Shown piece after piece: positions 13,501 through 56,100 of a stretch of 63,007 bases of DNA (the first letter of the stretch is position 1; every line of letters starts with the position of its first letter). The stretch comes from Fibrobacterota bacterium. Lineage in GTDB: Bacteria; Fibrobacterota; Fibrobacteria; UBA11236. The stretch is from contig JAEKLQ010000041.1 of the NCBI GenBank assembly GCA_019509785.1, forward strand, positions 1 to 63,007, written 5' to 3'. The notes beneath the pieces were generated by a model. It saw only the letters and a program-made list of their open reading frames with translations, made no database searches and was not told where the DNA came from. The translations under genes were made by a program, and so were the position numbers.

Positions 13501-16336
13501 GGCGCGCGATCTTCTGAAGGCGCATGCGTACTTCGAAATGAAGCGCCTGGACGTGGACCTGGTGCTCCTCAACGAAAACCCGTCGGAATCGTATTTCCAG
13601 CCCCAGCAGAACGAATTGGAGGGTTTATTGCGCATGCGTCGGGGAGGCGGCGAAGGGATGCGCGGCGGGGTTTTCCTGCTGCGACGGGACCGGATTCCCG
13701 CCGAGGACCGTCTATTGATCCAAGCCTGCTCTCGCGTCGTGCTCTCCGCCCGCCGCGGCAGCCTTTCCGATCAGGTCATGCGCATGCGGCGAGTGCCGGT
13801 GCCGGCCGCTCCGCCCCATAGGCGCCGGGAAGCCTCGGCGCAACCCGTGGTCCCGCCCCCACGGCCCTATCTCGAATTCTTCAACGGCCTGGGCGGATTC
13901 ACCCCGGACGGGAAGGAGTACCAGATCATCCTAGGCGAAGGGCAATGGACGCCCGCCCCTTGGATCAATGTTATCGCCAATCCTCATTTCGGATTCATCG
14001 CATCGGAGGCGGGATCGGGTTACACGTGGTGCGGGAATAGCCGCGAGCGCAAGCTGACGCCCTGGTCCGATGATCCGGTTTCCGATTCCCCGGGCGAAGC
14101 CATGTACGTGCGCGACCGCGAAAGCGGGGAAGTGTGGACGCCCACGGCCTTGCCCGTGCGTTTGGCCGGGCGGCCCTATGTGGCCGTGCATGGGCAAGGG
14201 TATACGCGGTACATGCATGCCTCGCAAGGGATCCGCTTGGAACTCACCCAATGGGTTCCCGAAAGCGATCCGGTAAAGATCTCGCGGCTGGTCCTGGAAA
14301 ACGTTTCCCCCAAGACCCGCCAACTGGACGTGACCGCCTACGTGGAGTGGGTGCTGGCCCCGGTGCGGGGGATGGCCACCCAGCACATCGTGACGCGTCG
14401 CGACCCGGCCACCGGCGCCCTTACCGCGCGAAATGCCTGGATCGCCGAATTCGCGGAGCCGGTCGCCTTCGCGGATCTGCAGGGCCGGCAATCCTCCTTT
14501 ACCTGCGATCGCGCCGAATTCCTGGGGCGTAACGGATCCCGGGCCCAACCCTTGGCCTTGCAACGCGTGGAGCCCTTGTCCAACCGCAGCGGCGCCGGCC
14601 TGGATCCTTGCGCGGCCCTGCAGGTTTTGATCGAATTGCCTCCCGGCGGCAAGGCCCAGATCGTATTCACCCTGGGACAGGCCGATTCCGACGAGGCAGC
14701 CGCCGCCCTAATTAAGAAATACCGCGACATTGATCACGAAAAGAACCTTGCCGATACGCGGCAGCGCTGGGATAGCCTGCTCGGCGGGGTGCAAGTCAAG
14801 ACACCGGATCGATCCCTGGATCTCCTGCTCAATCGCTGGTTGCCTTACCAGGTGATCGCCTGCCGCCTATGGGCCCGGACCGCCTTTTACCAGGCGGGCG
14901 GCGCGTTCGGTTTCCGCGATCAATTGCAGGACGTCATGGCCATGTGCGTCCTCGCCCCGGAAATGGCGCACGAGCAAATCCTCCGCGCGTCGGGCCGGCA
15001 GTTCCGCGCCGGGGACGTCCAGCATTGGTGGCATCCGCCTTCGGGCCGCGGGGTCCGCACCCATTTCTCGGACGATCGCCTTTGGCTGCCCTACGCGGTC
15101 CTGCATTATCTGGAGGCCACGGGCGATGCCGCCATCCTCGAGGCGCAAGCGCCCTGGTTGGATGGGCCGGAAGTGCCGGAAGGACGCGAGGACGCCTATT
15201 TCCAGCCCACGCAGAGCGAGGACACCGACAGCCTTTATGAACATTGCGCCCGCGCCCTGGAGCGGAGCATGGGGCTCGGGGCGCATGGCCTGCCGTTGAT
15301 GGGGAGCGGCGATTGGAACGATGGCATGAACCGCGTGGGGCAGGATGGCAAGGGGGAGAGCGGTTGGCTGGCCTGGTTCCTGATCCCCAACCTGAAGGGC
15401 TTCGCAGATTTGGCGGAGGCGCGCGGGGATGAGCGTGGCCGTATCTGGCGGGAACATGCGGAGCGCGTACGCGGGGCCATGGAGACGGCGGGATGGGATG
15501 GCGATTGGTATCGGCGCGGCTATTTCGACGACGGTTCGCCGCTCGGATCTTCCCAGTCGCAGGAATGCCGGATCGATTCCATCGCCCAATCTTGGGCGGT
15601 GCTTTCGGGAGCCGCCGATCCCGCGCGGGCCCGCCAGGCCATGTTCTCCGTAGAGGAATACCTGGTGCGCCAAGCGGAGGGCCTTGTCCTCCTTTTCACC
15701 CCGCCCTTCGACAAGGCTCCGCAGGATCCGGGCTATATCAAGGGATATCTCCCCGGCGTGCGCGAGAACGGCGGGCAGTATACCCACGCCGCGCTCTGGG
15801 TGGTAGCCGCTTTCGCGGCGCTAGGGGAGGGCGATAAGGCCGCGGAGCTGTTGTCCTTGCTCAACCCCGTGAACCATGCCGCCACGCGGGCGGGCGTGTA
15901 TCGCTACAAGGTCGAACCTTATGTCGCCGCCGCCGACGTGTATGCGGTGGCGCCGCACGTGGGCCGCGGAGGCTGGACCTGGTACACGGGATCGGCGGGA
16001 TGGATGTACCGCGTGGGCCTGGAGTGGTTACTGGGATTCCGGGTCCAAGGCGATCGCCTGCGGATCGTCCCCTGCCCGCCGCGCGATTGGCGGAGGTACG
16101 GGATGCGTTACCGCCGCGGCGGATCCATCTGGGATATTTCCGTTTCCAATCCGGAAGGGGACGGGCGCTTCATGGTGGCCTGCGAAATCGACGGCGTTAA
16201 GCGGGAACCGCCTTTCGACGCCATCGACGTTCCCGATGACGGGAAAGCGCACGTGGTCCGCATCGTGTTGGGGAAAGGGAATTCGGAACGGTACATGGAT
16301 TCTTCTTCCACCCGTCCCGCAACAACTTTATCTTGA
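7544..16336 (+). CDS. ndvB: Cyclic beta-1,2-glucan synthase (NdvB/ChvB-like, GT84-GH94)
   Basis: 2930 residues, close to Brucella Cgs and Rhizobium NdvB (about 2830-2870). Order: a helical N-terminal domain; membrane helices around 400-455; a GT84/GT2-like glycosyltransferase with acidic motif LDMDTR near 624-629 and HRWARGDWQLLPW near 771; more membrane helices around 805-985; a long GH94-related middle region; and two beta-sandwich/GH94 blocks (HELVPRTHLLSNGNYS and YTWCGNSRERKLTPWSD). The C-terminal phosphorylase barrel has GSGDWNDGMNRVG, with the GDWND motif at 2589-2593, where family members carry the catalytic Asp. The family primes on itself, elongates beta-1,2-glucan from UDP-glucose, trims by phosphorolysis and cyclises it into the periplasm. 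Role: osmotic adaptation or host/surface interaction. It is embedded with CBS and SRPBCC genes. Confidence 0.9.
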   Translation: MAEVAATLTETAPSGHFPIRGEIFSAEHLEEYAARLAEAHGKARPGRRGVPLLRQVDQNGAALRAVYNSISRMVRADRSITPAAEWLADNFHVVDEQLREIRNHLPPSYYRDLPKLASGPFARYPRVYAMVCGYIEHTDSRLEAALLSRYIRAYQRGTELTIGELWAVAITLRVALIENLRRMADMVVGGREARLRADRVADALLGLRGQDGTAPEAKPGDWEDFAESPYFSAFAVQLFQRVQDQAPAQARPLEWLDGELARRGISAQEIIRQEHQAQAALNVSVRNIITSMRLVLELDWKAFFEDASSVEAILHASPLYSDLDFPSRDLYRHAIEDLARGSGRSETEVAQRAVRAAGERVPGATGEVGFVLFGEGRLAFEGDLGYRTGSREAFARILRAHGKWIYPGAVLAVTALFAWYGLESLSGSGLGWAPLLLLGILGSAPLSEGALALVNRFLISFLPPRILPKLDFGNGIPSACRTLVAVPAFLRDPEEIRDLLERLEVHYLANSDGDIRFALLTDWIDAASESMAGDEALLECAREGMADLNERYGALPDGGSRFLLLHRKRTWNEREGKWMGWERKRGKLKELNRILRGARDTTYLAPAGGEGAIPRDVKFVITLDMDTRLPKGGAARLAGCLAHPLNRPRFDARSGRVTGGYGILQPRVVPSLPEDRERTFFHWVTAGPCGIDPYAAAVSDVYQDLLGEGSYAGKGIYDVDAFEDALRDRIPDNTLLSHDLFEGIFARSGLLSDVEVLEEFPSHYGAFAAREHRWARGDWQLLPWILGLRGKGLPFLGRWKMLDNLRRSLVPPCAFLSLALGWIFAAQAPGAWTALVLVALCLPYLVSASEAAAPPRAGTAYARYLRDTGELLLQGLAHYLFNLVVLAHQAWLLGDAMLRSLWRMAIGRRSLLEWVTAAQAATQREKGLWGAYRNMLAAAILPVGLAAGLAALGRNESLRLAAPWIALWMASPALAMMAGAPKRSRADDMLTSGERLALRETALKTWRFFREFIRPEDHFLPPDNFQEDPKPVVAHRTSPTNMGLGLLSIATARDMGWIGLKEAAGRLEAMLASMGKLARYRGHFFNWYSTTDLRPLEPRYISTVDSGNLAGHLLTLARACREYMESEILAPSLEEGLADLIHLVRDAAQALPRDLRVQAFGKRHMIEALEALEGVLLPVPADAGEWSARVREWEALADTVVDVARTLALEQKEPGTIELQSRAELMRSSLEGLSGDVKALFPWAGSGLTLEALCDLPIPATHRLLHGRLTLAELEQGCLAAAAEVRQVPSLGSDTGASTPLAQGQAATFAAALVDAATAARSLMDRFAGLAAAAERLALGMDFRFLIDPQRKLFAIGFRVREEALDPSFYDLLASEARLTSFLAVAKGDAPPSHWFRLGRTLTPVGSGATLLSWSGSMFEYLMPQLVMRSPPGSLIDSACRSAVKRQIEYGRELGIPWGVSEAAYNIRDLEMTYQYSSFGVPGLGLKRGLSEDRVIAPYATGLAAMVAPRAAAANLESLRAAGAEGRYGFYEAIDYTQARLQEGERATVVRAYFAHHQGMMLVALGDVLLGGRMQERFHSLPIVRAVDPLLQERLPKGVTVSLPNAWEASYPARVEASIEPVLHRFTTPHELVPRTHLLSNGNYSVLMTVAGSGFSRWQALAVTRWREDAVLDDYGQYFYLRDGESGATWSAGYQPLASDPDLYEAVFAEDKIEIERRDESLITRMEVVISPEDDAEVRRITIENKGSRDREIEITSYCEIALAPQEADIAHPAFSNLFVQTEFLPALSALLATRRPRSASEKPIWAAHVCGVEGEVAGGLQYETDRARFLGRGRTVRDPVSVADGKPLSNTAGAVLDPVFSLRRRVRVPEGGQVRLVFATFISGTREHALALADKYREASTFERVATLAWTQAQVQLRHLGVGPDEARLYQRLANRLFYPDPALRPSPDLLALNHKGQDALWPYGISGDLPIIFAAFDEAGDRNLARDLLKAHAYFEMKRLDVDLVLLNENPSESYFQPQQNELEGLLRMRRGGGEGMRGGVFLLRRDRIPAEDRLLIQACSRVVLSARRGSLSDQVMRMRRVPVPAAPPHRRREASAQPVVPPPRPYLEFFNGLGGFTPDGKEYQIILGEGQWTPAPWINVIANPHFGFIASEAGSGYTWCGNSRERKLTPWSDDPVSDSPGEAMYVRDRESGEVWTPTALPVRLAGRPYVAVHGQGYTRYMHASQGIRLELTQWVPESDPVKISRLVLENVSPKTRQLDVTAYVEWVLAPVRGMATQHIVTRRDPATGALTARNAWIAEFAEPVAFADLQGRQSSFTCDRAEFLGRNGSRAQPLALQRVEPLSNRSGAGLDPCAALQVLIELPPGGKAQIVFTLGQADSDEAAAALIKKYRDIDHEKNLADTRQRWDSLLGGVQVKTPDRSLDLLLNRWLPYQVIACRLWARTAFYQAGGAFGFRDQLQDVMAMCVLAPEMAHEQILRASGRQFRAGDVQHWWHPPSGRGVRTHFSDDRLWLPYAVLHYLEATGDAAILEAQAPWLDGPEVPEGREDAYFQPTQSEDTDSLYEHCARALERSMGLGAHGLPLMGSGDWNDGMNRVGQDGKGESGWLAWFLIPNLKGFADLAEARGDERGRIWREHAERVRGAMETAGWDGDWYRRGYFDDGSPLGSSQSQECRIDSIAQSWAVLSGAADPARARQAMFSVEEYLVRQAEGLVLLFTPPFDKAPQDPGYIKGYLPGVRENGGQYTHAALWVVAAFAALGEGDKAAELLSLLNPVNHAATRAGVYRYKVEPYVAAADVYAVAPHVGRGGWTWYTGSAGWMYRVGLEWLLGFRVQGDRLRIVPCPPRDWRRYGMRYRRGGSIWDISVSNPEGDGRFMVACEIDGVKREPPFDAIDVPDDGKAHVVRIVLGKGNSERYMDSSSTRPATTLS

Positions 16337-45697: not shown

Positions 45698-47605
45698 TCA
45701 ATTGGTCTGCTTGGCTTCCAGGGCCGCCCATCGGGCATAGAGGGCTTCGACCTCCGCTTGGCGGGCGGCATGCCTTTCGGTTGCCGCCTTGGAGGCTTCG
45801 TAGTTCCCGGAAGCGCTGGCTTCCAGCAGGGCGGCTTCGGCGGCCATCGCTTCGCCTTCCTTGGCCGCGATGGCGGCCTCCATCCCTTCCAACTCCTTTT
45901 TCTCGTTGTAGGATAACGTTGAGCGCTTCCTGGCAGGGGCCTCCGCTTCCGGGCGCAGGGGCGCCGTTGCGGCCTCGGCGGTTTCGTTCGCCATGGCTTC
46001 CAGGTAATCGCTGTAGTTGCCGGGAATCTGGCGGACCCGGCCGTCCGCGGAGAAAACGAGCATGGATGTCGCCACCTGATCGAGGAAGAACCGATCATGG
46101 CCCACGACCAGGGCGCACCCCGGGAAATCCGCCAGGGCCCGTTCCAAAGCCTGCAAGGTGGCGATGTCGAGATCATTGGTCGGCTCGTCGAGGATGAGCA
46201 AATTGGCCGGCGCCGAAACCAGCGCCAGGGCGAGCTGGAGCCGGTTCTGCTCCCCGCCGGAAAGCTTGCCCGCCAGGGCGAAATGCATGCGCGCGGGGAA
46301 AAGGAAGTTCTCCAGGAAGTTGCGCTTGGCGACGCGCGCGCCCCCGAACTCCACGTACTCGGCATCGCCGCCCAGGGTCTGCCAAACGGTTTTGGACGGA
46401 TCCAGGGCTTCGCGTTTTTGGTCGAAGTAGGCCGGAACGGTATTCACTCCCAGTTTGATGAGGCCGGAATCGGGCTTAAGATCGCCGAGGACGAGCTTCA
46501 GGAAAGTGGTCTTACCGGAGCCGTTGGGCCCGAGGATTCCCACGCGATCCCCGGGAAGCAGGCTCAAGTTCAAATCCCGGAAAAGGGTATGGCCGCCGAA
46601 GGATTTGGATATCCCCTGCGCCTCGAGAATCGTTTTCCCCAGGCGGGCGGATCCCTCCAGATCGAGGGACATGGTTTTGTCGGTGGAGAAGCCTTGCGTG
46701 TCCCGGGCGGTTTCGAAACGTTGGATGCGGGCTTTAGCCTTGGTCCCGCGGGCTTTGGGGCCCCGGCGGATCCAATCGATCTCCGTCCGCAGGAATCCAA
46801 GCCGCTTGGAGTCGGCCTTGGACAGGCTTTCCTCCAGCTCGGCCTTCTTCTCAAGATAGCGCCCGTAATTTCCCGGGAAGGATCGCATCTGCCCCTGCCA
46901 TAGCTCCAGGATATGATCGACGGCGTTTTCCAGGAAATAACGATCGTGGGTGACCACCACCAAGGTGCCGGGGTAACTTGCGAGTTTCCCTTCCAGCCAG
47001 CGGATGGCCGATTCGTCGAGATGGTTGGTGGGCTCATCGAGGAAAAGGAGATCAGGGGTTCCCGCCAAGGCCCGGATGAGCTGGATCTTCTTGATCTGGC
47101 CGCCCGAAAGCCGCGGGTTCACGGTCCAGGCCAGGTCCACGTCGAGCTGGCCCGCCAAGGCCTGTACCTGGCCGTATAAATCCCATCCGTGCTCGCGATC
47201 AATGGCGGCGGCGAGGTCGGCGAGGATTTCGGCATCCCCGCCGGGAAGCGCCAGGAAATAGCGGGCTAACAGGTTTCCTAAGGGACCATGGGGAGCGAAG
47301 ATCTCCTCGGCGACCGGGCGGCCCTCGGCCAAGTCGCCCATTTCCGGCCTAGCCTCGGACGGAGGTACGATACGGGCGGCTTGATCAAGATACCGGTAGG
47401 CGAGGTTGGTCCGCCGGGTGACCGTGCCGGCGTAGTCGCTTTCCCGGCCGGCGAGGATGCGAAGCAAGGTCGATTTGCCCGAGCCGTTGATGCCGAGCAA
47501 GGCGACCTTCTGCCCGCGGTCGATGCCGAAAGAAAGTCCGTCGAAGAGGGTTTTTTCGCCCCAGGCTTTGCGTAGATCCTGGGCGGTGAGGACGTTTTCG
47601 GCCAT
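45698..47605 (-). CDS. uup: ABC-F family ATPase (Uup-like)
   Basis: 635 residues. Two ABC ATPase domains in one soluble chain: first LLGINGSGKSTLLRILAG and LSGGQIKKIQLIRAL with FLDEPTNHLDE; second ILGPNGSGKTTFLKLVLG, LSGGEQNRLQLALALV and ILDEPTNDLD. The linker between (EKKAELEESLSKADSKRLGF, GPKARGTKAKARIQRFE) is ABC-F-typical. A C-terminal coiled coil (KKELEGMEAAIAAKEGEAMA, RHAARQAEVEALYARW) matches Uup, which binds ribosomes and DNA and limits transposon excision. No membrane helices. Follows the PilZ gene operon but is separated by a hairpin. Confidence 0.9.
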   Translation of the reverse strand: MAENVLTAQDLRKAWGEKTLFDGLSFGIDRGQKVALLGINGSGKSTLLRILAGRESDYAGTVTRRTNLAYRYLDQAARIVPPSEARPEMGDLAEGRPVAEEIFAPHGPLGNLLARYFLALPGGDAEILADLAAAIDREHGWDLYGQVQALAGQLDVDLAWTVNPRLSGGQIKKIQLIRALAGTPDLLFLDEPTNHLDESAIRWLEGKLASYPGTLVVVTHDRYFLENAVDHILELWQGQMRSFPGNYGRYLEKKAELEESLSKADSKRLGFLRTEIDWIRRGPKARGTKAKARIQRFETARDTQGFSTDKTMSLDLEGSARLGKTILEAQGISKSFGGHTLFRDLNLSLLPGDRVGILGPNGSGKTTFLKLVLGDLKPDSGLIKLGVNTVPAYFDQKREALDPSKTVWQTLGGDAEYVEFGGARVAKRNFLENFLFPARMHFALAGKLSGGEQNRLQLALALVSAPANLLILDEPTNDLDIATLQALERALADFPGCALVVGHDRFFLDQVATSMLVFSADGRVRQIPGNYSDYLEAMANETAEAATAPLRPEAEAPARKRSTLSYNEKKELEGMEAAIAAKEGEAMAAEAALLEASASGNYEASKAATERHAARQAEVEALYARWAALEAKQTN

Positions 47606-47702: not shown

Positions 47703-48425
47703 CTATAGCGGCAAGCTGCGGGAGAGGGCCTTCCGCAAGCGGCGCGGGATGGTGGTGGCTTTGAGCAAAGCTTCCGTACGTCCTTGCGCGTCGAGCCTCA
47801 AGGCGCGTACGCGGGCAATCAGGGGGTGATTCATAAGCTCCGGTAAGTCGAAGCAAAGGCGCGCTTCGCATCCCGGAAAGAGGAACACCGCGGGGTCTTG
47901 GGAAGTGATCCCGAAGTTTCCGCACGGCCCGACGGCCGATAGGGCGAAGGCCGAGGCATGCCCGTACAGGATGGGATGGGGGATGCGCCCGGAGAGGGAC
48001 GGAACGGCTGCCTGATCGGGAAGGCGGGATGAGGGGTTGGTGAATTCGTCTACGTCCAGCCGCTGGACTCCCACCTTGAGACCGTCGGGAGTAGCCGCGA
48101 CGGAGCGGACCCTCACCTCGACCATGGGGAATTGGCGTCGATCGAGACGGATGCGAACGGTCAAGATAGAGCCGGTACGGATCGGGATGGGCGAAGGAGC
48201 GTCCAGGGTGAATCCGAAGGAGGTCGATGAGAAATCCCATAGCTGCGCAGGATGCCAATCGCCCGCGTCCTGGGCGCGTACGTCCATCGTTACGAGACCA
48301 AGTTCCCGGCGCGAAACGCGGGTTATGGCGCGGCTTTCCCGATAGATCGGGAAGATCCGGCCTATCGGGCCCGGCCTTCCGCGTACTGAAGCGGGACCAG
48401 GGGGTCGATCGTATTCCCCGCTCAA
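47703..48425 (-). CDS. Free-standing paired PilZ-like protein
   Basis: 240 residues from TTG at 48425, with AGGGA upstream; it overlaps the stop of the previous gene by 3 bases. Two PilZ-like beta domains without acyltransferase. The first has RVSRR (RxxxR pattern) then LWDFSSTSFGF, aligned with WDFTSISFG and WDFSPHGF of the fused proteins. The second (VPSLSGRIPHPILYGHASAF to VRALRLDAQG) lacks clear RxxxR and DxSxxG. It matches the N-terminal halves of the proteins at 49742 and 52242, so it is a split-off sensor. With the truncated acyltransferase next to it, it probably forms a two-chain equivalent of the fused enzymes. Confidence 0.65.
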   Translation of the reverse strand: MSGEYDRPPGPASVRGRPGPIGRIFPIYRESRAITRVSRRELGLVTMDVRAQDAGDWHPAQLWDFSSTSFGFTLDAPSPIPIRTGSILTVRIRLDRRQFPMVEVRVRSVAATPDGLKVGVQRLDVDEFTNPSSRLPDQAAVPSLSGRIPHPILYGHASAFALSAVGPCGNFGITSQDPAVFLFPGCEARLCFDLPELMNHPLIARVRALRLDAQGRTEALLKATTIPRRLRKALSRSLPL

Positions 48426-49663
48426 AACAGGTCCCTACGGTAGCGCTTGCCGAGCTTCGCCTCGAAAGCGCGCGACTCGGCGTAGCGCAGCCGAAAAGCG
48501 AGGAAGGGATGCGCCAAAAGCCTCACGAGCAGGCCCGGCCACTCACGCAGACGGGGACGGAAGTACCCTTTGATGGTCCGATCCATCACGACGGATGCAT
48601 AGGTGGCCGACCAGGCCGAAAGGTTCATGCCCGCGCCGGAACTCGCGCGGCTGCGCGGGGCCCTAAGCAGGTAATGTTCTTTGCCCAAGCAGGATCCGGA
48701 AGCCCCCGTGTCCTCGAAACCGACGGAGAGGTATATCGGTTTCAGGTATCGGTCGCACAAGCAGTAGAACCATTCCCTGCCGGATTCGAGGAAGACGCGC
48801 GCGATCTGTTCGAATATGGCCTCGCGGACGTCGCCTCCCCGGTAGCCGCGATGCATGCAAAGCCGGTTGATCTCGAACATCGTCCGGCGGGGCGGGATCG
48901 GGCCGGGGAAGCGGTTGCCAGGAAAAATGGTCTCCCCTACGAGAACATCGTCTTCGGAGTTGGCGAAACAGATGGCGGCGCTCGCGACGAGGACATCCCC
49001 GTGGAACGCGCATAGGATGCGGCTGGAATTGTCCCAGGCGAAGACCATGTCCTCGGGTTTGGCCCCGGCGCGGACTTTGCCTACCCGCGTGTACGCCTCC
49101 TTGCGCAATTCCAGGACCTTGGCATAGTCCTCGCGCGTGACGGCGTAGCTGAAATCCAATCGGCCCCGGAAGATCCGCAACGGGAAGCCGACCCGGTACG
49201 CTTCCGCCGGAGGGATTCCCGCCGTGAAGACCAGCCATGAGGAAAGGGCGTTCGCGAGGGAATAGGGGAGGTGCAATGGCGCGGTACTAAAGCGCCAAGA
49301 CGTGCCTTCGGGGAGGCATAGGGTAATCCGGCCGCGGTACAGCGTCGGCCCGGCGGAAGGGACCATGATTCGTGTTTCCAGGACATCCCCAGGCCGCGGA
49401 ATCCACCCCGGAAAGGCGGACCTGAACTCCAGACTTAAATCCGGACCAGAGCCGCAGCACCAGAGACCCGGTCCCCGCGGGACGCCCCGTCCCAGGAGTC
49501 GCGCAGGCAAAGGCGGATCCCAAGCCAGGTTCGGGCGCGTTTGGGATGGGGCGGAAGAGACGGGGCCATCCGCACCCTCTTCTGCAGCGGAGCCAGAACG
49601 ATCCTGATCCTCGGGGCTCGCATTTGCGCCACCGGCAAGGCTCAATCTCGTATGGGACTGCAT
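48422..49663 (-). CDS. FeeM-like N-acyltransferase with degenerate PilZ N-terminus
   Basis: 413 residues from ATG at 49663 (AAAAGGAG eight bases upstream; a TTG one codon earlier is less likely). Residues 1-165 include one degenerate PilZ-like beta region (PGWIPRPGDVLETRIMVPSA, GPTLYRGRITLCLPEGTSWR) without the RxxxR motif. The C-terminal GNAT/FeeM-like domain begins LRIFRGRLDFSYAVTREDYA and has VLELRKEAYTRVG, SRILCAFHGDVLVASAAICF, ETIFPGNRFPGPIPPRRTMF, INRLCMHRGYRGGDVREAIF and YLKPIYLSVGF. FeeM-type enzymes transfer acyl chains from acyl-ACP to an amine. Its last bases overlap the free PilZ gene. Confidence 0.6.
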   Translation of the reverse strand: MQSHTRLSLAGGANASPEDQDRSGSAAEEGADGPVSSAPSQTRPNLAWDPPLPARLLGRGVPRGPGLWCCGSGPDLSLEFRSAFPGWIPRPGDVLETRIMVPSAGPTLYRGRITLCLPEGTSWRFSTAPLHLPYSLANALSSWLVFTAGIPPAEAYRVGFPLRIFRGRLDFSYAVTREDYAKVLELRKEAYTRVGKVRAGAKPEDMVFAWDNSSRILCAFHGDVLVASAAICFANSEDDVLVGETIFPGNRFPGPIPPRRTMFEINRLCMHRGYRGGDVREAIFEQIARVFLESGREWFYCLCDRYLKPIYLSVGFEDTGASGSCLGKEHYLLRAPRSRASSGAGMNLSAWSATYASVVMDRTIKGYFRPRLREWPGLLVRLLAHPFLAFRLRYAESRAFEAKLGKRYRRDLF

Positions 49664-49714
49664 CAAAATCGCTCCTTTTGGGCCTTCGGGTTAAAAAAAT
49701 AGAATTCGCTTCCA

Positions 49715-49732
49715 GCCCCGGGCGGACGGGGC
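49715..49732 (-). terminator. Internal operon hairpin between two acyltransferase genes
   Basis: GCCCCG-N6-CGGGGC, followed on the minus strand about 14 bases on by seven Ts. Possibly a partial terminator that lowers expression of the last two genes. Confidence 0.35.
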
Positions 49733-49741
49733 GCAGCCGTA

Positions 49742-51544
49742 TCAGCCGGCTTCGGCGCCCGCTTCGGTTTCCGGCAGAAAGTCTTCGGTTTCCAGCCCCC
49801 CGGACCGCAGGATGGGGGCGGGCGGGAGCTTGGGCCGTTCGCGCTCGCGGAGCAGGACCTGGAGATGCCGGCGGAACGCCTTGGCGGCCCGCTTTTCCAG
49901 GATTCGCTTTGATAAGGGTCCGAATAGAAGCTTCGCGCGGATGAGAAAGGACACCGGCCCTGGAATCTTGAGGATCTTGCCATCCAGCAGGTGCCGCACC
50001 AGGTCGCCGAAAAGGAAGTTCCATAGGAACAGGTTCATCCCTTTGCCCGAGAGGAAGGCGTCGCGATGCGCGAGGATGAGGTGATGCTCCAGATTGTTGA
50101 GGCCCGGATGCCTGTAGCTGGCTCCGAGCTTCACGAATCCGATGCGCTCGTACAAGGGCAGCAGGTCCGATACCGCCGAGGTGAGGAGCCAATAACGATC
50201 CGAGAGAAGGAAATGCTTGGCTCCGTGCTGGAAAAGGCCCTGAAGCAAATCGGTGCCGCGGTATTCTTCGTCGATGCACAAGCGCGAGACCTCGATCAAG
50301 CTGGTCTTCGGGGGGATAGTGACCGGGTATTTGCTTCCCGGAAAGCCCACCTCGCTATCGAGCGATTCTTCTTCGTGCGCCGGGAAGGCGAAGGTGATTG
50401 AGCCTACAAGCTTGTCATGGTGCCAGGCCATGAGGATACGGCTGTGCCCGTCCAAACGGCTGGCCATGTCCTCCGGAAGCGTATCCTTCGGCTTCTTGCC
50501 CGTGCCCACGTAGGCTTCGCGCCGCAAATGGAGGACTTCGGCGTAATCCTCCATGGTTTTCACGCTGCGGAAGCGAAGCCGGCCCTTCACCTGGCGGGCC
50601 AGAAAGCCGGCCTGCCGCAAGCGTCCCGGGGTCCATTGCCTGGAGAACAGGAGGTAATCGCAGATCCCGTTATGCAGATCCCAGGGTATGTTGACGCAGG
50701 CGACGCCGAACCTTACATGGTTGGACTCTGTCGCATACACCCAGGTGACGCGGCCGGACAGGGGCGTATCGCGATGGCGGGCAAGATCGAAATGGATCCC
50801 GATCTCCATGCCCTCGAAGAGGAGGATGGACGGATCCTCGCTCAGGAACGAAAGGCCCATGTGGCGGTTGATGTCCGAGACGACCAAAGGGGACCAATGC
50901 CCGAAGAGGAACGGATGCTTCACCCGGGCCTTGAGCGAAAGGGTGGGGGACAAGGGCAATCGAAAGGCTTCGCGCCGTTCCGCATCCACGACCTGGGGGA
51001 AATTGACATCCAGTCGCCTGAGCCCGATGCGGGTCCCTTCTTTGATCGGGATTAGGTTCTTCACTTGGCACCAGGTTTCGAATTCACGATCCGGCGAGAG
51101 GCGGATGCGGATCTCGACCTCATCGCCCGGGCGGATGCCGAGCGGGGCGGGGGATTCCGGTCCGGTAGCGGCGGGATCCATAGGGCCGGCATCCGGGGGT
51201 ATGCCAGGCATGTCGGCCGGAGTCGCGGCGTCTTCCATCCCCGCCGGCGCGGGCCAAGAGGCGGCCGGGGCCTCGTGGATCACGCCGAAGGAGATGGACG
51301 TGAAGTCCCAGAGCTTGACCGGAAGCCAGCGGCCTCCGGGAGCGCGTAAGGAGACGATAACGAATCCCAGCTCACGGTGCGAAATGCGGTCCTGCAAGCG
51401 GTTCTCGGAGGGCCCGGAATACTTGTAGAGTCCGGTCGCGAGTTTGCCGTGATCGATGTCCGGCGCGGCGCTCCAATCGACCGGCGTCGCCGGATCCGAT
51501 CCTTGCGAGCTTCGCGCCAAGGCTTTCCGGGCCGAACGTTTCAT
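49742..51544 (-). CDS. PilZ-PilZ-FeeM fusion, putative c-di-GMP-controlled N-acyltransferase (copy B)
   Basis: 600 residues from ATG at 51544; the ATG overlaps the TGA of the haem-oxygenase-like gene. First PilZ: RISHR at 53-57 (RxxxR) and LWDFTSISFG at 78-87. It carries a ~45-residue Pro/Ala insert (about 93-136) not found in the other copies. Second PilZ: RREAFR near 190-195 and SDINRHMG (223-230), close to (D/N)xSxxG with one extra residue. From ~325 the FeeM/GNAT-like domain starts: GRLRFRSVKTMEDYAEVLHL, RREAYVGTGKKPKDTLP, KLVGSITFAF, PKTSLIEVSRLCIDEEYRGT and LLPLYERIGFVKLG. PilZ domains bind c-di-GMP, so the enzyme is likely switched by this messenger (inference). Substrate unknown. Confidence 0.65.
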   Translation of the reverse strand: MKRSARKALARSSQGSDPATPVDWSAAPDIDHGKLATGLYKYSGPSENRLQDRISHRELGFVIVSLRAPGGRWLPVKLWDFTSISFGVIHEAPAASWPAPAGMEDAATPADMPGIPPDAGPMDPAATGPESPAPLGIRPGDEVEIRIRLSPDREFETWCQVKNLIPIKEGTRIGLRRLDVNFPQVVDAERREAFRLPLSPTLSLKARVKHPFLFGHWSPLVVSDINRHMGLSFLSEDPSILLFEGMEIGIHFDLARHRDTPLSGRVTWVYATESNHVRFGVACVNIPWDLHNGICDYLLFSRQWTPGRLRQAGFLARQVKGRLRFRSVKTMEDYAEVLHLRREAYVGTGKKPKDTLPEDMASRLDGHSRILMAWHHDKLVGSITFAFPAHEEESLDSEVGFPGSKYPVTIPPKTSLIEVSRLCIDEEYRGTDLLQGLFQHGAKHFLLSDRYWLLTSAVSDLLPLYERIGFVKLGASYRHPGLNNLEHHLILAHRDAFLSGKGMNLFLWNFLFGDLVRHLLDGKILKIPGPVSFLIRAKLLFGPLSKRILEKRAAKAFRRHLQVLLRERERPKLPPAPILRSGGLETEDFLPETEAGAEAG

Positions 51545-52239
51545 AGCCGGGTCACCGCCTTGGGTGATGCCGCGGGCCGCCAATCCTCCGCCTCTTCCAG
51601 GATGCCTTGGAACATGCCCGCATGCAAGCGGCACGTCCCCCTCAAGCCGTAGAGCACGGCTTCCAGATCCTTCTCGTTCTTGACGAAGCCTTCCAGGTAT
51701 TCCCGGTTCCATTTCAGATGGACGGGATCCGCTTCGGCATGCTCCCGGAGGAAGGTCGTGGCTTCCAACGGGACTCCGATGCGGAGCAGGGATTCGATCA
51801 CTTCGGGACCGAAATGGACGGGCAGGGCCTCGAGGTGGTACAGATAACCCAGGTACGACAAGGGATTGCGGTGCTGGATCTGGAAAGTAATGAAAGCGGC
51901 CATAGCCTCGGTGGTGGGCAAGGGAAGCGATCGGCGGACATCTTCCGTGTTGCCGCCCAATTTTCCGAAGTCCTCCAGCGCAAGCGCGTCATGCCCGATT
52001 TCCATGGCGGTATGCTTCAGGAATTTCGCTTCCAGATCCGGCCGGTCCGAATCGAGATGGGCGATGAACAGCGCCATGTTCCTGGGGTTGCAGGCGGCGT
52101 TGAAATAGGTTTCCCGGAGAAAGCCCATATAATAACGGATCTCCAGCCGATCCGAAGCGAGCCGCCGGAAATATTCTCCTTGCGTCATCCGTTCGAATTC
52201 CTTTTGCCACTGCGAATCCAATTGCGATGCAACGTCCAT
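51541..52239 (-). CDS. Haem-oxygenase-like diiron oxidase (HDO-type) protein
   Basis: 232 residues, AAGG ribosome site inside the end of the previous gene, with a 2-base gap. All-helical. Motifs: FLKHTAMEIGHDALALEDF with Glu80-x-x-His83, and REHAEADPVHLKWN with His167-x-x-x-Asp171-x-x-His174. The ExxH and HxxxDxxH pair is typical of the haem-oxygenase-like diiron oxidases (UndA, BesC, SznF relatives) and of iron-containing redox enzymes rather than of TenA. Known relatives cleave C-C bonds, N-oxygenate or desaturate acyl or amino acid substrates. Sitting between two acyltransferases, it probably oxidises their acyl product. The reaction is unknown. Confidence 0.7.
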   Translation of the reverse strand: MDVASQLDSQWQKEFERMTQGEYFRRLASDRLEIRYYMGFLRETYFNAACNPRNMALFIAHLDSDRPDLEAKFLKHTAMEIGHDALALEDFGKLGGNTEDVRRSLPLPTTEAMAAFITFQIQHRNPLSYLGYLYHLEALPVHFGPEVIESLLRIGVPLEATTFLREHAEADPVHLKWNREYLEGFVKNEKDLEAVLYGLRGTCRLHAGMFQGILEEAEDWRPAASPKAVTRL

Positions 52240-52241
52240 TT

Positions 52242-53780
52242 TTAACCTTCCGCCGCGGTAGCGGCCTTCCTGATAGCCTTATCGTTCTTCGCGTCCATGA
52301 GCCATTCCGCCAGCGGGCCAAGCGCCAGCCGCAACCGCAGCGCCCATCTCTCGGCCCGTGTCAAGCGGACCAGTCCTTTGCCGGCCAATTCCCGCATGAG
52401 GTCGCCGTAAAGGATGTTCCAACGCAGGAGGCCGATGCCCCGGGCGTGGGTCACCGTCTCTTTCGGAACCCGGATGAGATGGTGGGGCCGGCCCAGGAAA
52501 TCGCCCACGTACCCGGGAGCCTTGAATCCGATGTCCAGATACATGGGCAAGAGGGTATCGTCGGAAAGATTCATGATATAGTCGCGATCGGAAAGCACGA
52601 AGATGCGCGCGATCTGCTCGAAGACTGCGTGCAAGAGGTCGCCTCTCCGGTAATCCTTGTGGGTGCAGAGGCTATTGACCTCCATTACGCGGGTGCGGGG
52701 CGGAGGATTTCCCGGGAAACGATGGCCCGGGAAAGCGGTTTCCGAGCGCATCACCTCGGTTTCCGAGGCCGGGAAGGTCAAGGCCGCGCTGGCCACCAGG
52801 GTTCCTTTGTAATAGAAGCAAAGGATGCGGCTGCGCTTGTCCCAAGCGAGGGACATTTCTTCGGGCGAGGTCCGGGCCTCGCGTTTGCCGACGTCAACGT
52901 AGGCGTTGCGTCGCAGAGCCAGGACCTGGGCGTAATCATCCATGGTTTCCACGAAGCGGAACTCGATCCGATTGCGGAAGATGCGGATCGGAAGCCCCAT
53001 ACGCCGCAGGGATTCCGGGGAGAATTGGTATTCGTACGCGAGGGCCTCGGCGAGATCGTTCGCCAGGCCCGCGCCCAGCCTCTCCGCGCGCACCCGCACT
53101 TTGATCCGCGCGCCGGGCGCCAATTCCAGGGATTCGATCCGCCCTTCCATCGCGCACTCGCCCGTAGTCGGGATCAGCAGATGCAACTTCAACCGCTGCC
53201 CGCGGAACAGCGGCTGGGCGGGATCCTCGGCGAGGAAATCGAAACGCAGGCCGGGACGCAGGCCGCATAAGCGCAGTTGCGAACGCTCCCCGAAGAAAAG
53301 GGGATTCTCCGCTTCGGCGATCAATTCCGCCTCTTTGGGAATGCGCAACAATTCTCCGTGGGGCGTAGACGACCACGCATCGGGTCCCACCCGCCGATCG
53401 AGGTCCCGGCGGGACAACCCGATGCGGCTTTTGCCCTTGTGCATGGATATGTTCGCCACGCGGCATTCCGCTTCCAGCCGGTTGCCATCGGCTTCCAGGC
53501 GAATGCGCACTCGGTCGCCTACGTTTACCCCGCCCTTCACGGTCTCGGGCCCTTGCAAGACGGCGAAACCGTGAGGGGAAAAGTCCCAGAGCGTCACCCG
53601 GCTTTCCCGGCCGTCGGGCGATACGAGCCAGGAGGGAATCCGCTCCAGCTCGCGTTCGCTAACGCGGTTGGAAACGCGTCCGTTGGCCCCTACGCTGGGG
53701 CGCCAGGCTTCGGCCGGCAGGGCTTGCAATTCCAGTGGCTTCATGGGCGCGAGATTCCGGATCGTCGTGCGCGTTCTCAT
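52242..53780 (-). CDS. PilZ-PilZ-FeeM fusion, putative c-di-GMP-controlled N-acyltransferase (copy A)
   Basis: 512 residues from ATG at 53780; a GTG four codons earlier is an alternative, and neither ribosome site is strong. First PilZ: RVSER at 39-43 and LWDFSPHGF, in which DFSPHG fits the canonical DxSxxG exactly, so this copy is the most likely true c-di-GMP binder. Second PilZ-like region around 140-250 (LLRIPKEAELIAEAENPLFF) is degenerate. From ~265 the FeeM/GNAT domain: IRIFRNRIEFRFVETMDDYA, QVLALRRNAYVDVGKREART, GTLVASAALTFPASE, RTRVMEVNSLCTHKDYRRGD and LLPMYLDIGFKAPG. First gene of the operon, divergent from a histidine kinase across 133 bases that must hold both promoters. Confidence 0.65.
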   Translation of the reverse strand: MRTRTTIRNLAPMKPLELQALPAEAWRPSVGANGRVSNRVSERELERIPSWLVSPDGRESRVTLWDFSPHGFAVLQGPETVKGGVNVGDRVRIRLEADGNRLEAECRVANISMHKGKSRIGLSRRDLDRRVGPDAWSSTPHGELLRIPKEAELIAEAENPLFFGERSQLRLCGLRPGLRFDFLAEDPAQPLFRGQRLKLHLLIPTTGECAMEGRIESLELAPGARIKVRVRAERLGAGLANDLAEALAYEYQFSPESLRRMGLPIRIFRNRIEFRFVETMDDYAQVLALRRNAYVDVGKREARTSPEEMSLAWDKRSRILCFYYKGTLVASAALTFPASETEVMRSETAFPGHRFPGNPPPRTRVMEVNSLCTHKDYRRGDLLHAVFEQIARIFVLSDRDYIMNLSDDTLLPMYLDIGFKAPGYVGDFLGRPHHLIRVPKETVTHARGIGLLRWNILYGDLMRELAGKGLVRLTRAERWALRLRLALGPLAEWLMDAKNDKAIRKAATAAEG

Positions 53781-53913
53781 GCTCCGCGTCACGATCCGCT
53801 TCAGGTTTTTCAGGGCCGCTCAGATATTAGGGGCCGGTCCGCGCCGCCGGCAAGGTTTCCCGTAATCGCGTTTGGGAATTAGCGGAATTGGGGATTAACT
53901 AGATTTGCACGCC

Positions 53914-56100
53914 ATGCATCGCGCCGCAACGCAACCGCGTCCTCCGGAAAAGGTGTATTCGAACCGCCTTATGTTCGGCTACCTGAAAATCATGGACGAT
54001 CGGGCCGGAAAGACGGCTACGAACGATGCCCTGGCCCGGTACGGCCTGGATCGCCTCAAGCTGATGGATCCTTCCGGCTTCGTGACCTTCGATGAGAACG
54101 ATCGTCTCGTGCGGGCCGCTCGCGAGGTAACGAAGGAGGAAGACGTCGGTTATCTCGTCGGCCGGAATCTGCCGAATAGCGTAGGCAATGCCCAGGCGTT
54201 CATCCTGGGTATCACCTCTCCCGGCTTCCTCATGCGTAGCTTCGGAACCATCGAGTCCAAGCTGGCCCCCCGAACCATCGCGAAGTTGAAGCAGGTCGGC
54301 CCCAACGCTTTCCAATCGGACATCACCCACAAGGACGGATTCAAGGAAGCGCCGTACGTCTGCCGCAATCGCATCGGCTCCTACGAGTCCATGCCCTTGT
54401 TCTTCGGCCTTCCGCATGCCAGGGTCGAGCACCCGGAATGCGCTTTCAAAGGCGCTGATCATTGCGTTTACATCGTCCGTTTCCCCGCCTTCGGGACCGG
54501 CTGGTTGAACCGCGCTTTCTTCATCCTGGTCGCCGTGGCCGCGGCCCTAGGAGTTGCGTTCCTCCTGCATCGGGATCGCTTCGCCATCGCCGCATCCGCG
54601 CTCATTTCCTTGAACCTCGGGTGGGCTTGCTTGGCTTTGCACAAGAGCCGCAACGCGAAACGGGCCGTGGACTGGTCGCGCCAGACCAACGAAGGCCTGG
54701 AGCGCCAGAACAAGATCCTCGAGGCCACCAACGAGCAGATCCATTCCCTGCAGGAATTGACCTCCATCCGGAACGCCGGCATGAGCGTGCAAGACATCTG
54801 CGATCGCGTGGTCCGGACCCTGGTCGACAATTTCCACTTCGGCTCCAGCCAGATTTGGCTTCTGGATGAACCGCGTAAATACCTCTCCTGCCACAACGCC
54901 GTCGGCTATTCGCCCGAGCTTTTCGCCTTCATACAGAATACCCGGTTCAAGATTAGCCAGGACTGGGACAACCCGTATGGATTGCTGATCCAGACCTTGG
55001 ATCAGGGAAAGACCCTGCTGGTAAACGAACCGGAAGAGGTCTACGCCAAGGTTACCCCCCGGACCCGCGAGTTCCTCATGGCCCTCGGGATTTCCTCTTT
55101 CATCATCACGCCCCTCATTCACGAGGGGAAATCCTTCGGGATCCTGGCGGCGGAATACCACCACGGGGAGAAGTTCCGGAACCAGGATCGGCTGCTTTTC
55201 CAGTCCATCGCGAATTCCATCGCCGGCACCTTGGTGGCCGCCGAACTATACGAGGCGATGGAGCGGAAGGTCGAGCAACGGACGCGCGAATTGGCCGCGG
55301 CCAACGAGCAGTTGCTGGCCGCCAAGGAGATGGCGATCCAAAGCGAGAAGCTATCCTCCTTGGGCCAAATGGCCGCCGGCGTGGCCCATGAGATCAACAA
55401 TCCCCTCAATTTCTTGGTCAATATCATCCCGGACGTAAAACGGGACATGGAAGGCCTGGAAGCGATCCGGACGCTGGCGCTCACGACCGGACCGGGCGAG
55501 GAATTCGCGAAAAAGGCCCGGGAGATCGAGGAGTCGTACGATCTGGAATCCCATTTGTCCGAGAAGGACTTCGTCTTCGAGAAAATCCGGAAGGCCCTGG
55601 ATAAAAGCACCCGCATCGCCAATAGCCTGAAGGTTTTCTCCCGCACCAGCGCCAAGGAAAAGGTGGTCCGGGAGACTTGGGCGGACATGGTGCGGGAAGT
55701 CATCGAGCTGATCCCGGCGAAGGTTAAGGGGGATACGCGCATCCAGGTGGACATCCCCGCGGCCATGAATTGGCTTGTGAACAAGAACGAGATCGAGCAG
55801 GCCATCCTGGTTCTCATCAACAACGCCATCGACGCTTTGGCCCAGAAGGGAAACCTGGAGGTTACGGGCCGGGAGGCACCCGAGGAGCAGGTGCTTGAAT
55901 TCAAGGACGACGGTCCCGGAATCCCCGATGCCATCCTCAAGAAAATCTTCGACCCGTTTTTCACCACCAAGCCGCCCGGCAAGGGAACGGGGCTCGGCCT
56001 CACCATCGCCGCCGAAATCGTGAAAAAGTACGGCGGCAACCTGAGCGTCCAGTCGACGCCGGGGAAGGGCGCCACTTTCCGCATGCGCTTCAGGAAATAG
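53914..56100 (+). CDS. Hybrid-sensor histidine kinase: V4R-like domain, two membrane helices, GAF, HisKA, HATPase
   Basis: 728 residues from ATG at 53914 (weak ribosome site; ATG at 53971 is an alternative). N-terminal ~190 residues end HARVEHPECAFKGADHCVYI, a pattern like the C-terminal half of V4R small-molecule domains. Two hydrophobic helices follow (FFILVAVAAALGVAFLL and FAIAASALISLNLGWACLAL), then a coiled coil. GAF: MSVQDICDRVVRTLVDNFHF to EGKSFGILAAEYHH. A second coil leads to HisKA with phosphoacceptor His in GVAHEINNPLNFLVN, and HATPase with LINNAIDAL, DDGPGIPD and GTGLGLTIAAEIV. No receiver. It faces the acyltransferase operon and may control it through an unlinked response regulator. 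Confidence 0.85.
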   Translation: MHRAATQPRPPEKVYSNRLMFGYLKIMDDRAGKTATNDALARYGLDRLKLMDPSGFVTFDENDRLVRAAREVTKEEDVGYLVGRNLPNSVGNAQAFILGITSPGFLMRSFGTIESKLAPRTIAKLKQVGPNAFQSDITHKDGFKEAPYVCRNRIGSYESMPLFFGLPHARVEHPECAFKGADHCVYIVRFPAFGTGWLNRAFFILVAVAAALGVAFLLHRDRFAIAASALISLNLGWACLALHKSRNAKRAVDWSRQTNEGLERQNKILEATNEQIHSLQELTSIRNAGMSVQDICDRVVRTLVDNFHFGSSQIWLLDEPRKYLSCHNAVGYSPELFAFIQNTRFKISQDWDNPYGLLIQTLDQGKTLLVNEPEEVYAKVTPRTREFLMALGISSFIITPLIHEGKSFGILAAEYHHGEKFRNQDRLLFQSIANSIAGTLVAAELYEAMERKVEQRTRELAAANEQLLAAKEMAIQSEKLSSLGQMAAGVAHEINNPLNFLVNIIPDVKRDMEGLEAIRTLALTTGPGEEFAKKAREIEESYDLESHLSEKDFVFEKIRKALDKSTRIANSLKVFSRTSAKEKVVRETWADMVREVIELIPAKVKGDTRIQVDIPAAMNWLVNKNEIEQAILVLINNAIDALAQKGNLEVTGREAPEEQVLEFKDDGPGIPDAILKKIFDPFFTTKPPGKGTGLGLTIAAEIVKKYGGNLSVQSTPGKGATFRMRFRK

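Follow-up and report, generated by a model that had tools for sequence, protein, structure and literature searches.

The gene cluster described here raises two questions: (i) whether its acyltransferases and its oxidase form a single lipid pathway and (ii) whether that pathway is switched by c-di-GMP. It lies on the minus strand of a 63,007-nt window, the whole stretch of a Fibrobacterota genome that was analyzed. The original prediction had placed five genes there in one operon, and all five ORFs were found at the positions given, with 4-base overlaps at 51541-51544 and 48422-48425 (Table 1). The core unit consists of three genes, two of which encode the fusions A (PilZ-PilZ-FeeM-like) and B; between them lies the gene for a haem-oxygenase-like diiron oxidase (HDO). 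The start of fusion A is ambiguous (53744, 53780, or 53792; ATG is possible at 53744 or 53780).

Table 1. Features of the operon and its neighbors, in window positions
Feature	Position	Strand	Basis
Sensor histidine kinase (GAF + HATPase), divergent from A	53905..56100	+	HATPase_c 3.9e-24, GAF_2 3.3e-12
Fusion A, tandem PilZ barrels + FeeM-like GNAT acyltransferase, 516 aa as listed	52242..53792	-	Pfam, AlphaFold, fold search
c-di-GMP-type motif in first PilZ of A, RVSER (residues 43-47) to DFSPHG (residues 70-75), 23 residues apart	53568..53666	-	Orthologue alignment
Putative catalytic Glu371 of A (MEVNSLC), central strand of GNAT domain	52680..52682	-	Invariant in fusions
HDO, haem-oxygenase-like diiron oxidase, 232 aa	51541..52239	-	PF14518 profile, PDB matches, ligand residues
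Fusion B, tandem PilZ barrels + FeeM-like GNAT, 600 aa	49742..51544	-	Pfam, AlphaFold, fold search
Putative catalytic Glu418 of B (IEVSRLC)	50291..50293	-	Invariant column E418
Extra A-type GNAT, degenerate N-terminus, 414 aa, outside conserved core	48422..49666	-	Similarity to A of the window
Extra paired-PilZ protein, 240 aa, B-type N-terminus without GNAT, outside conserved core	47703..48425	-	Similarity to B N-termini
ABC-F ATPase, downstream	45698..47605	-	ABC_tran 1.3e-42 + ABC_tran_Xtn/CTD

Conservation of the operon

The order A-HDO-B is kept in five of the six genomes of the genus, so the co-occurrence in related genomes on which the prediction depended was found. Each operon copy has two acyltransferases flanking one oxidase; HDO always lies between A and B except in genome G001, and G004 carries two parallel operon types. 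A co-diverges with HDO (r 0.90) and with B (r 0.84). No other of the 168 phylum genomes scanned has A-HDO-B. A scan of genome contigs with a single HDO protein gave no match, and an alignment-based scan recovered the same genus only. Searches by tblastn of A against plasmids and of HDO against phages also gave no match. The sensor histidine kinase adjoins A divergently in the window, G002, G003, and G005 and is a possible regulator of the operon. The ABC-F ATPase gene, which adjoins B in G001-G004, is probably a conserved housekeeping neighbor.

The other two predicted genes were found in the window genome only and are absent from the other operon-bearing genomes. The GNAT part of the 414-aa protein is nearest to the window's fusion A (43%, 217 bits, versus 146-150 bits for fusion B), and its FeeM match (20.9 bits) falls under the Pfam cut-off. 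For the 240-aa protein, all seven B N-termini rank top (80-91 bits) and every A ranks below (≤49 bits); its PilZ match (20.5 bits) is likewise under the cut-off. From these similarities, the pair look like a decayed second copy. Their confinement to one genome and their decayed appearance rule out an operon of five functional, conserved genes; what survives of that claim is the presence of the ORFs and overlaps, with conservation limited to A-HDO-B.

Two PilZ-PilZ-acyltransferase fusions

Neither fusion A by itself nor the fusion profiles matched a PDB sequence significantly, so we turned to fold prediction. The AlphaFold models of A (pLDDT 81.7) and B (pLDDT 77.4) each place two beta-barrels ahead of a GNAT domain. 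The tandem-PilZ c-di-GMP receptors YcgR and MrkH head the Foldseek list for the N-terminus of A, and tandem-PilZ receptors are among the best matches for B (MotI, PP4397, and YcgR were recovered). Global rmsd in the tandem-PilZ alignments is high (11-18 Å), indicating that the domain arrangement differs from that of YcgR. For the C-terminus of A, FeeM (2g0b_A) ranks first (VIA-align Z 16.7, 2.9 Å over 179 residues); for that of B, FeeM (2g0b_H; Z 17.5, 2.5 Å over 166) shares a top tie with plain GNATs. The AHL synthases LasI, TofI, RpaI, and BjaI rank just behind FeeM in these searches. With barrels modeled at both N-termini, a GNAT fold at both C-termini, and FeeM at or near the top, the two predicted fusions are borne out, and the structural matches rule out spurious PilZ and GNAT calls.

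Pfam profiles divide between the two proteins. The PilZ profile passes its cut-off of 22.5 in A (23.3-23.8 bits), and the FeeM profile passes its cut-off of 27 in B (37.7 bits, 2.2e-9). In A, FeeM scores 21.9 bits, under the cut-off, and a FeeM-like identity is suggested by the modeled fold and by homology to B. The Glu of an (M/I)E(V/I)xxLC motif is invariant in 15/15 fusion sequences. Glu371 of A and Glu418 of B, the putative catalytic residues, may be the counterparts of FeeM Glu95.

These folds would also suit ordinary c-di-GMP effectors, with GNATs that modify a protein or polysaccharide and an HDO that is functionally unrelated. There is precedent in Caulobacter HfsK, an N-acetyltransferase-family c-di-GMP effector that targets the holdfast (PMC5362036), and plain GNATs score high in the C-terminal fold searches of both A and B. 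We consider this very unlikely, however: the best matches of A, alone or in a tie, are FeeM and AHL synthases, B passes the FeeM cut-off, and the HDO lies inside the operon, co-diverges with A, and has relatives of the same family that adjoin FeeM-like enzymes elsewhere.

Motifs for c-di-GMP

All of the PilZ motifs predicted for the fusions are present. The first barrel of A pairs RVSER with DFSPHG; among A orthologues RxxxR occurs in 6/7 and DxSxxG in 7/7, and six of the seven have the full motif with PilZ-like spacing. The exception is G001, where HDO is missing and A is interrupted by a premature TAG. The second barrel of A lacks the motif. In the window's fusion B, neither barrel combines RxxxR with (D/N)xSxxG: the first has RISHR with DFTSIS, and the second has REAFR (within the predicted RREAFR) with DINRHM. 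DFTSIS replaces DxSxxG in five of seven B orthologues, and those of G003 and G004a have DFSAIG or DFTSIG. The second barrel of B has an inserted residue (DxNxxMG).

The incomplete motifs of B, the motif-free second barrel of A, and the position of HDO between A and B everywhere except in G001 would fit barrels that serve as assembly modules, holding the three proteins in one complex rather than sensing c-di-GMP. This seems unlikely to us. A keeps both canonical motif halves in 6/7 orthologues, the exception being the copy with the lost HDO and the premature stop, and the window genome encodes c-di-GMP synthases (10 GGDEF domain matches, including intact GGEEF enzymes).

The oxidase and its relatives

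The HDO matches Haem_oxygenas_2 (PF14518; 4.4e-19, 69.4 bits versus a cut-off of 28.9), and its PDB matches are 3dde (E 6.5e-30), MboA (1.6e-7), and a CADD-type protein (8.6e-7). The candidate ligands E43, E80, H83, E137, H167, D171, and H174 are all invariant in Fibrobacterota orthologues. The predicted ExxH (E80/H83) and HxxxDxxH (H167/D171/H174) are thus present, and together with E137 occur in 6/6 Fibrobacterota and in 17/18 of the sequences aligned. Profile, homology, and ligand set point to a diiron oxidase.

Among Proteobacterial relatives of this HDO, a FeeM-like, GNAT, or "thermostable hemolysin" gene is adjacent in 11 of 12 contexts, and we conclude that acyltransferase-HDO pairing is recurrent. 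Pseudoalteromonas, Vibrio, Alteromonas, Variovorax, Pantoea, and Novosphingobium have T_hemolysin-AMP-binding-HDO-SDR-TPR clusters, whose HDOs form a separate tree group (support 88/89). On Agarilytica rhodophyticola plasmid pSU2, a FeeM profile match (35 bits, cut-off 27) lies directly upstream of HDO. Comparison by hhalign of the fusions with four T_hemolysins was weak (E 0.078). The GNAT part only, compared with seven T_hemolysins, gave Prob 64% and E 6.5e-5, the Glu motifs falling in register, and unrelated HDOs used as a control gave <2%. The relationship is suggestive but short of proof. The recurrent pairing raises the possibility that "thermostable hemolysin" genes encode acyltransferases under a wrong annotation.

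HDOs carry out varied chemistry, which leaves a wide choice of substrates and which we count against a synthase-then-oxidase model. BesC, SznF, and CADD-type HDOs oxidize or cleave free amino acids or amines. The acyltransferase's place beside HDO genes may have more to do with amine supply than with oxidation of the product: HDO would act first on a free amino acid or amine, and the amine so formed would next be acylated by A and B, perhaps at two sites, yielding a two-chain amide lipid. Besides 3dde, the nearest characterized or solved HDOs are MboA (mangotoxin) and CADD-type 4-aminobenzoate synthases rather than fatty-acid enzymes, and the two acyltransferases around one oxidase in every operon copy would suit this order. 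In Deefgea, a FeeM-like-HDO pair adjoins a DUF3419 protein and S-adenosylmethionine decarboxylase, which are possible amine-supplying genes. The Fibrobacterota operon has no such gene, however, and the Proteobacterial T_hemolysin-AMP-binding-HDO-SDR sets resemble lipid tailoring. We regard oxidation before acylation as doubtful.

Proposed pathway

Our preferred reading, to which we assign a probability of about one half, is a c-di-GMP-gated two-step N-acyl lipid pathway in which N-acylation is followed by oxidative tailoring by HDO. The observations behind it are gene order, folds, motifs, conservation of A-HDO-B, and GGDEF enzymes in the genome. We predict that A and B work as FeeM-type N-acyltransferases, each transferring a long acyl chain to an amine. 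The donor would be acyl-ACP, as the operon has no acyl-CoA ligase gene, and the acceptor is most likely an amino acid. The tandem barrels, with one canonical site in A and partial ones in B, would report c-di-GMP to the enzymes, with activation or inhibition both conceivable. HDO would then use O2 and its diiron center on the acylated product, by desaturation, oxidative decarboxylation to an enamide, or hydroxylation. The product may be a surfactant, signal, or membrane lipid. Of the switched pathway originally proposed, the domain assignments and operon logic stand, supported by profiles, AlphaFold models with fold search, and conservation in the genus; the switch and the chemistry stay conditional.

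More broadly, FeeM-like/T_hemolysin acyltransferases and HDOs may constitute a class of N-acyl-lipid oxidation pathways that is widespread yet undescribed, and its committed step would in Fibrobacterota be switched directly by c-di-GMP via tandem PilZ domains on both acyltransferases. We offer this tentatively, at somewhat less than even confidence. The usual targets of c-di-GMP effectors are motility, exopolysaccharide, and transcription. Small-lipid synthesis under direct c-di-GMP gating would, if true, be an unusual output, an allosteric, post-translational control of a small-lipid pathway, and one testable as a two-enzyme system. On the broader reading, "thermostable hemolysin" proteins would not be protein toxins but synthases of N-acyl lipids. 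The recurrent pairing provides a substrate hypothesis for the uncharacterized HDO family that includes 3dde, a solved structure of unassigned function.

Comparison with known systems

The claim that no system of this make-up had been described holds in part. FeeM-PilZ fusions such as Nas354 and pathways joining FeeM-fold acylation to an oxidase, such as tyz, are already published (PMC4897644, PMC10404671), and acyltransferase-HDO pairs recur. The open literature searched yielded no description of a PilZ-gated acyltransferase combined with HDO, and no open-access paper linking HDO with N-acyl amino acids, T_hemolysin, or an acyltransferase. New here is the recurrence of the pairing in Proteobacteria.

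Nas343 and Nas354 (Thies et al. 2016) likewise join a FeeM-type NAS domain to PilZ, have a catalytic Glu, and made N-acyltyrosine in E. coli; control by c-di-GMP was proposed (PMC4897644). Their order, an N-terminal NAS and a single C-terminal PilZ, is reversed in A and B, where two barrels precede the GNAT domain, and the nas genes lie outside any biosynthetic operon and lack a partner HDO (PMC4897644). The tyz/oxz acyl-oxazolone pathways share the logic of a FeeM-fold N-acyltransferase followed by an oxidase on the N-acyl amino acid, in tyz an O2-dependent desaturation of N-acyl-Tyr. Their oxidase is of the flavin nitroreductase type with a ThiF partner, and they lack PilZ and HDO (PMC10404671); neither a nitroreductase-type oxidase nor a ThiF-type enzyme was found among the Fibrobacterota operon proteins.

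The Proteobacterial T_hemolysin clusters resemble the Fibrobacterota operon in that an HDO of the same family adjoins a probable FeeM-like acyltransferase. They differ in a ligase-supplied acyl donor, an added SDR, and the lack of PilZ; by Pfam, PF12261, AMP-binding, and SDR have no match among the Fibrobacterota operon proteins. The Agarilytica pSU2 genes are an ungated minimal pair, with one small acyltransferase, no PilZ, and no second acyltransferase. FeeM itself shares with the fusions a GNAT/AHL-synthase-like fold and an invariant Glu; it lacks PilZ, and the fusions, of which B alone passes the FeeM cut-off, add extra C-terminal helices. Like YcgR, MrkH, and PP4397, the fusions have two successive PilZ-type barrels, with RxxxR and DxSxxG together in A. 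Unlike in those receptors, the barrels are joined to an enzyme and it is the first barrel of A that has the canonical site; in YcgR the canonical motif is in the second.

Operon architecture and predicted folds

The contig belongs to a 5.4 Mb Fibrobacterota metagenome-assembled genome (MAG), and the same operon is present on Fibrobacteres/Fibrobacteria MAG contigs. Its core comprises A and B, both fusions of tandem PilZ barrels to a C-terminal FeeM-like GNAT acyltransferase, with a haem-oxygenase-like diiron oxidase (HDO) encoded between them. Of the five-gene operon originally predicted, the five minus-strand ORFs and two start/stop overlaps (4 bases each; HDO/B and 414-aa/240-aa genes) were confirmed, but the last two genes are absent from the other operons compared. 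The GNAT domain of the 414-aa protein is most closely related to A of the same genome, and the 240-aa protein is matched far better by B N-termini than by A N-termini. By sequence, the simplest reading is that these genes are a duplicated A/B pair from which HDO and portions of the two fusions have been lost. The operon may be regulated by a divergent histidine kinase in the window, possibly in response to a small molecule. The window also encodes a 2930-aa protein (7544-16336) that combines a glucoamylase-like domain with the supersandwich and catalytic domains of GH94, as in cyclic beta-glucan synthases.

Features of the operon and a histidine kinase gene in the window
Feature	Coordinates	Strand	Domain assignment
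A	53792-52242	minus	Pfam PilZ + FeeM (FeeM below cut-off)
HDO	52239-51541	minus	Pfam Haem_oxygenas_2
B	51544-49742	minus	Pfam FeeM
414-aa protein	49666-48422	minus	Pfam FeeM, below cut-off
240-aa protein	48425-47703	minus	Pfam PilZ, below cut-off
Divergent histidine kinase	53905-56100		N-terminal region weakly similar to AraC ligand-binding domain (1.3e-5)

AlphaFold models of A and B (mean pLDDT 81.7 and 77.4) both have two beta-barrels in tandem, then a GNAT domain with additional C-terminal helices. The top Foldseek matches of A are the tandem-PilZ c-di-GMP receptors YcgR, MrkH, PP4397, and VCA0042; Foldseek matches of B include MotI, PP4397, and YcgR. Two-domain matches to such receptors have high global rmsd, so the single barrels are PilZ-like but their relative placement differs from that in the receptors. 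By VIA-align, the best match of A is FeeM (Z 16.7, 2.9 A over 179 residues), with AHL synthases and plain GNATs trailing it by up to roughly 2 Z units; for B, FeeM comes second (Z 17.5, 2.5 A over 166), level with plain GNATs. The predicted N-terminal PilZ barrels and C-terminal GNAT fold are thus borne out by the models and fold searches, with neither missing.

Conservation across Fibrobacterota

Among 168 genomes searched from the phylum, HDO is confined to the window's genus (five of six genomes) and invariably lies between A and B; fusions occur in all six. Genome G001, which lacks HDO, has A and B at different loci; its A (L030:7243-8763), in which RxxxR is broken and a TAG comes early, probably decayed after oxidase loss. 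A possible relative of the fusions in another family (G012, L059:8089-9633) is a remote PilZ-PilZ-GNAT-like orphan without HDO, with a degenerate GNAT, adjoining prepilin-type genes; G014 also has a remote match.

A and HDO share one two-type split ({window, G005, G004 second copy} versus {G002, G003, G004 first copy}), and pairwise identities correlate (A-HDO r 0.90; A-B r 0.84); in these comparisons A, HDO, and B evolve as a module. In G004 the complete operon is present twice, as tandem copies separated by a class III adenylate/guanylate cyclase gene (L027:11040-12740). Another N-acyl amino acid synthase, NasP, is reportedly cAMP-activated (cited in PMC4897644).

Barrel 1 of A retains RxxxR in 6/7 orthologues and DxSxxG in 7/7; that of B keeps RxxxR, with DFTSIS in place of DxSxxG in 5/7. 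Barrel 2 of B has RxxxR in most orthologues and reads DxNxxMG. The Glu of (M/I)E(V/I)xxLC is invariant in all 15 GNAT domains, as are all candidate HDO ligands across the Fibrobacterota set. The window genome has 10 GGDEF matches, the strongest with intact GGEEF sites, so the organism very probably makes c-di-GMP.

Acyltransferase-HDO pairing in Proteobacteria

An actual or possible acyltransferase lies at most two genes upstream of relatives of this HDO in 11 of 12 Proteobacterial plasmid contexts (not a random sample; assignment is weak for Deefgea, Pseudomonas, and Rhizobium), the exception being Pseudoalteromonas THAF3. The FeeM profile is rare, occurring in one of 14 control genomes. FeeM (35 bits, above cut-off) is immediately upstream of HDO in Agarilytica pSU2, as are a weak FeeM-like protein in Deefgea (followed, after HDO, by DUF3419 and S-adenosylmethionine decarboxylase) and a GNAT in Pseudomonas coronafaciens; a hypothetical protein near HDO in Rhizobium CB3171 has weak profile likeness to the fusions' GNAT. 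In the HDO tree, Fibrobacterota HDOs cluster with FeeM/GNAT-linked HDOs, with support (88/89) that is not decisive. On a Rhizobium sp. T1470 plasmid, a serine-hydrolase domain is fused to a FeeM domain (L048:2777-4732), downstream of cmlS, a gene annotated as chloramphenicol halogenase, and of an adenylating enzyme.

The remaining contexts, in Pseudoalteromonas, Vibrio (two), Variovorax, Pantoea, Alteromonas, and Novosphingobium, are clusters of 'thermostable hemolysin' (T_hemolysin, PF12261), AMP-binding, HDO, SDR, and TPR genes, the other four regularly coming after T_hemolysin (L043, L044, L046, L047, L074, L077), sometimes with a two-component system. Beside T_hemolysin, SDR, and TPR, Novosphingobium sp. 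PP1Y plasmid Mpl has a single AMP-binding-HDO ORF (L075:3528-5564), placing two steps of the cluster on one chain. Profile-profile comparison (Prob 64%, E 6.5e-5, Glu aligned) suggests a relationship between T_hemolysin and the Fibrobacterota GNAT, and T_hemolysin proteins may be synthases of N-acyl lipids. Expression of Nas354 (FeeM-PilZ) renders E. coli haemolytic, with N-acyltyrosine produced (PMC4897644), which would account for the name 'hemolysin'.

Proposed pathway and comparison with known systems

We propose that c-di-GMP gates A, and perhaps B; that both would N-acylate an amine, with acyl-ACP as donor; and that HDO would then oxidize the N-acylated product. The main alternative is that HDO acts first, making the amine. 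The original prediction knew of no system with this composition. In the open-access literature searched we found neither an HDO flanked by two N-terminally tandem-PilZ acyltransferases nor a recurrent acyltransferase-HDO association, but the PilZ-NAS fusion, the FeeM-plus-oxidase logic, and HDOs are already known separately.
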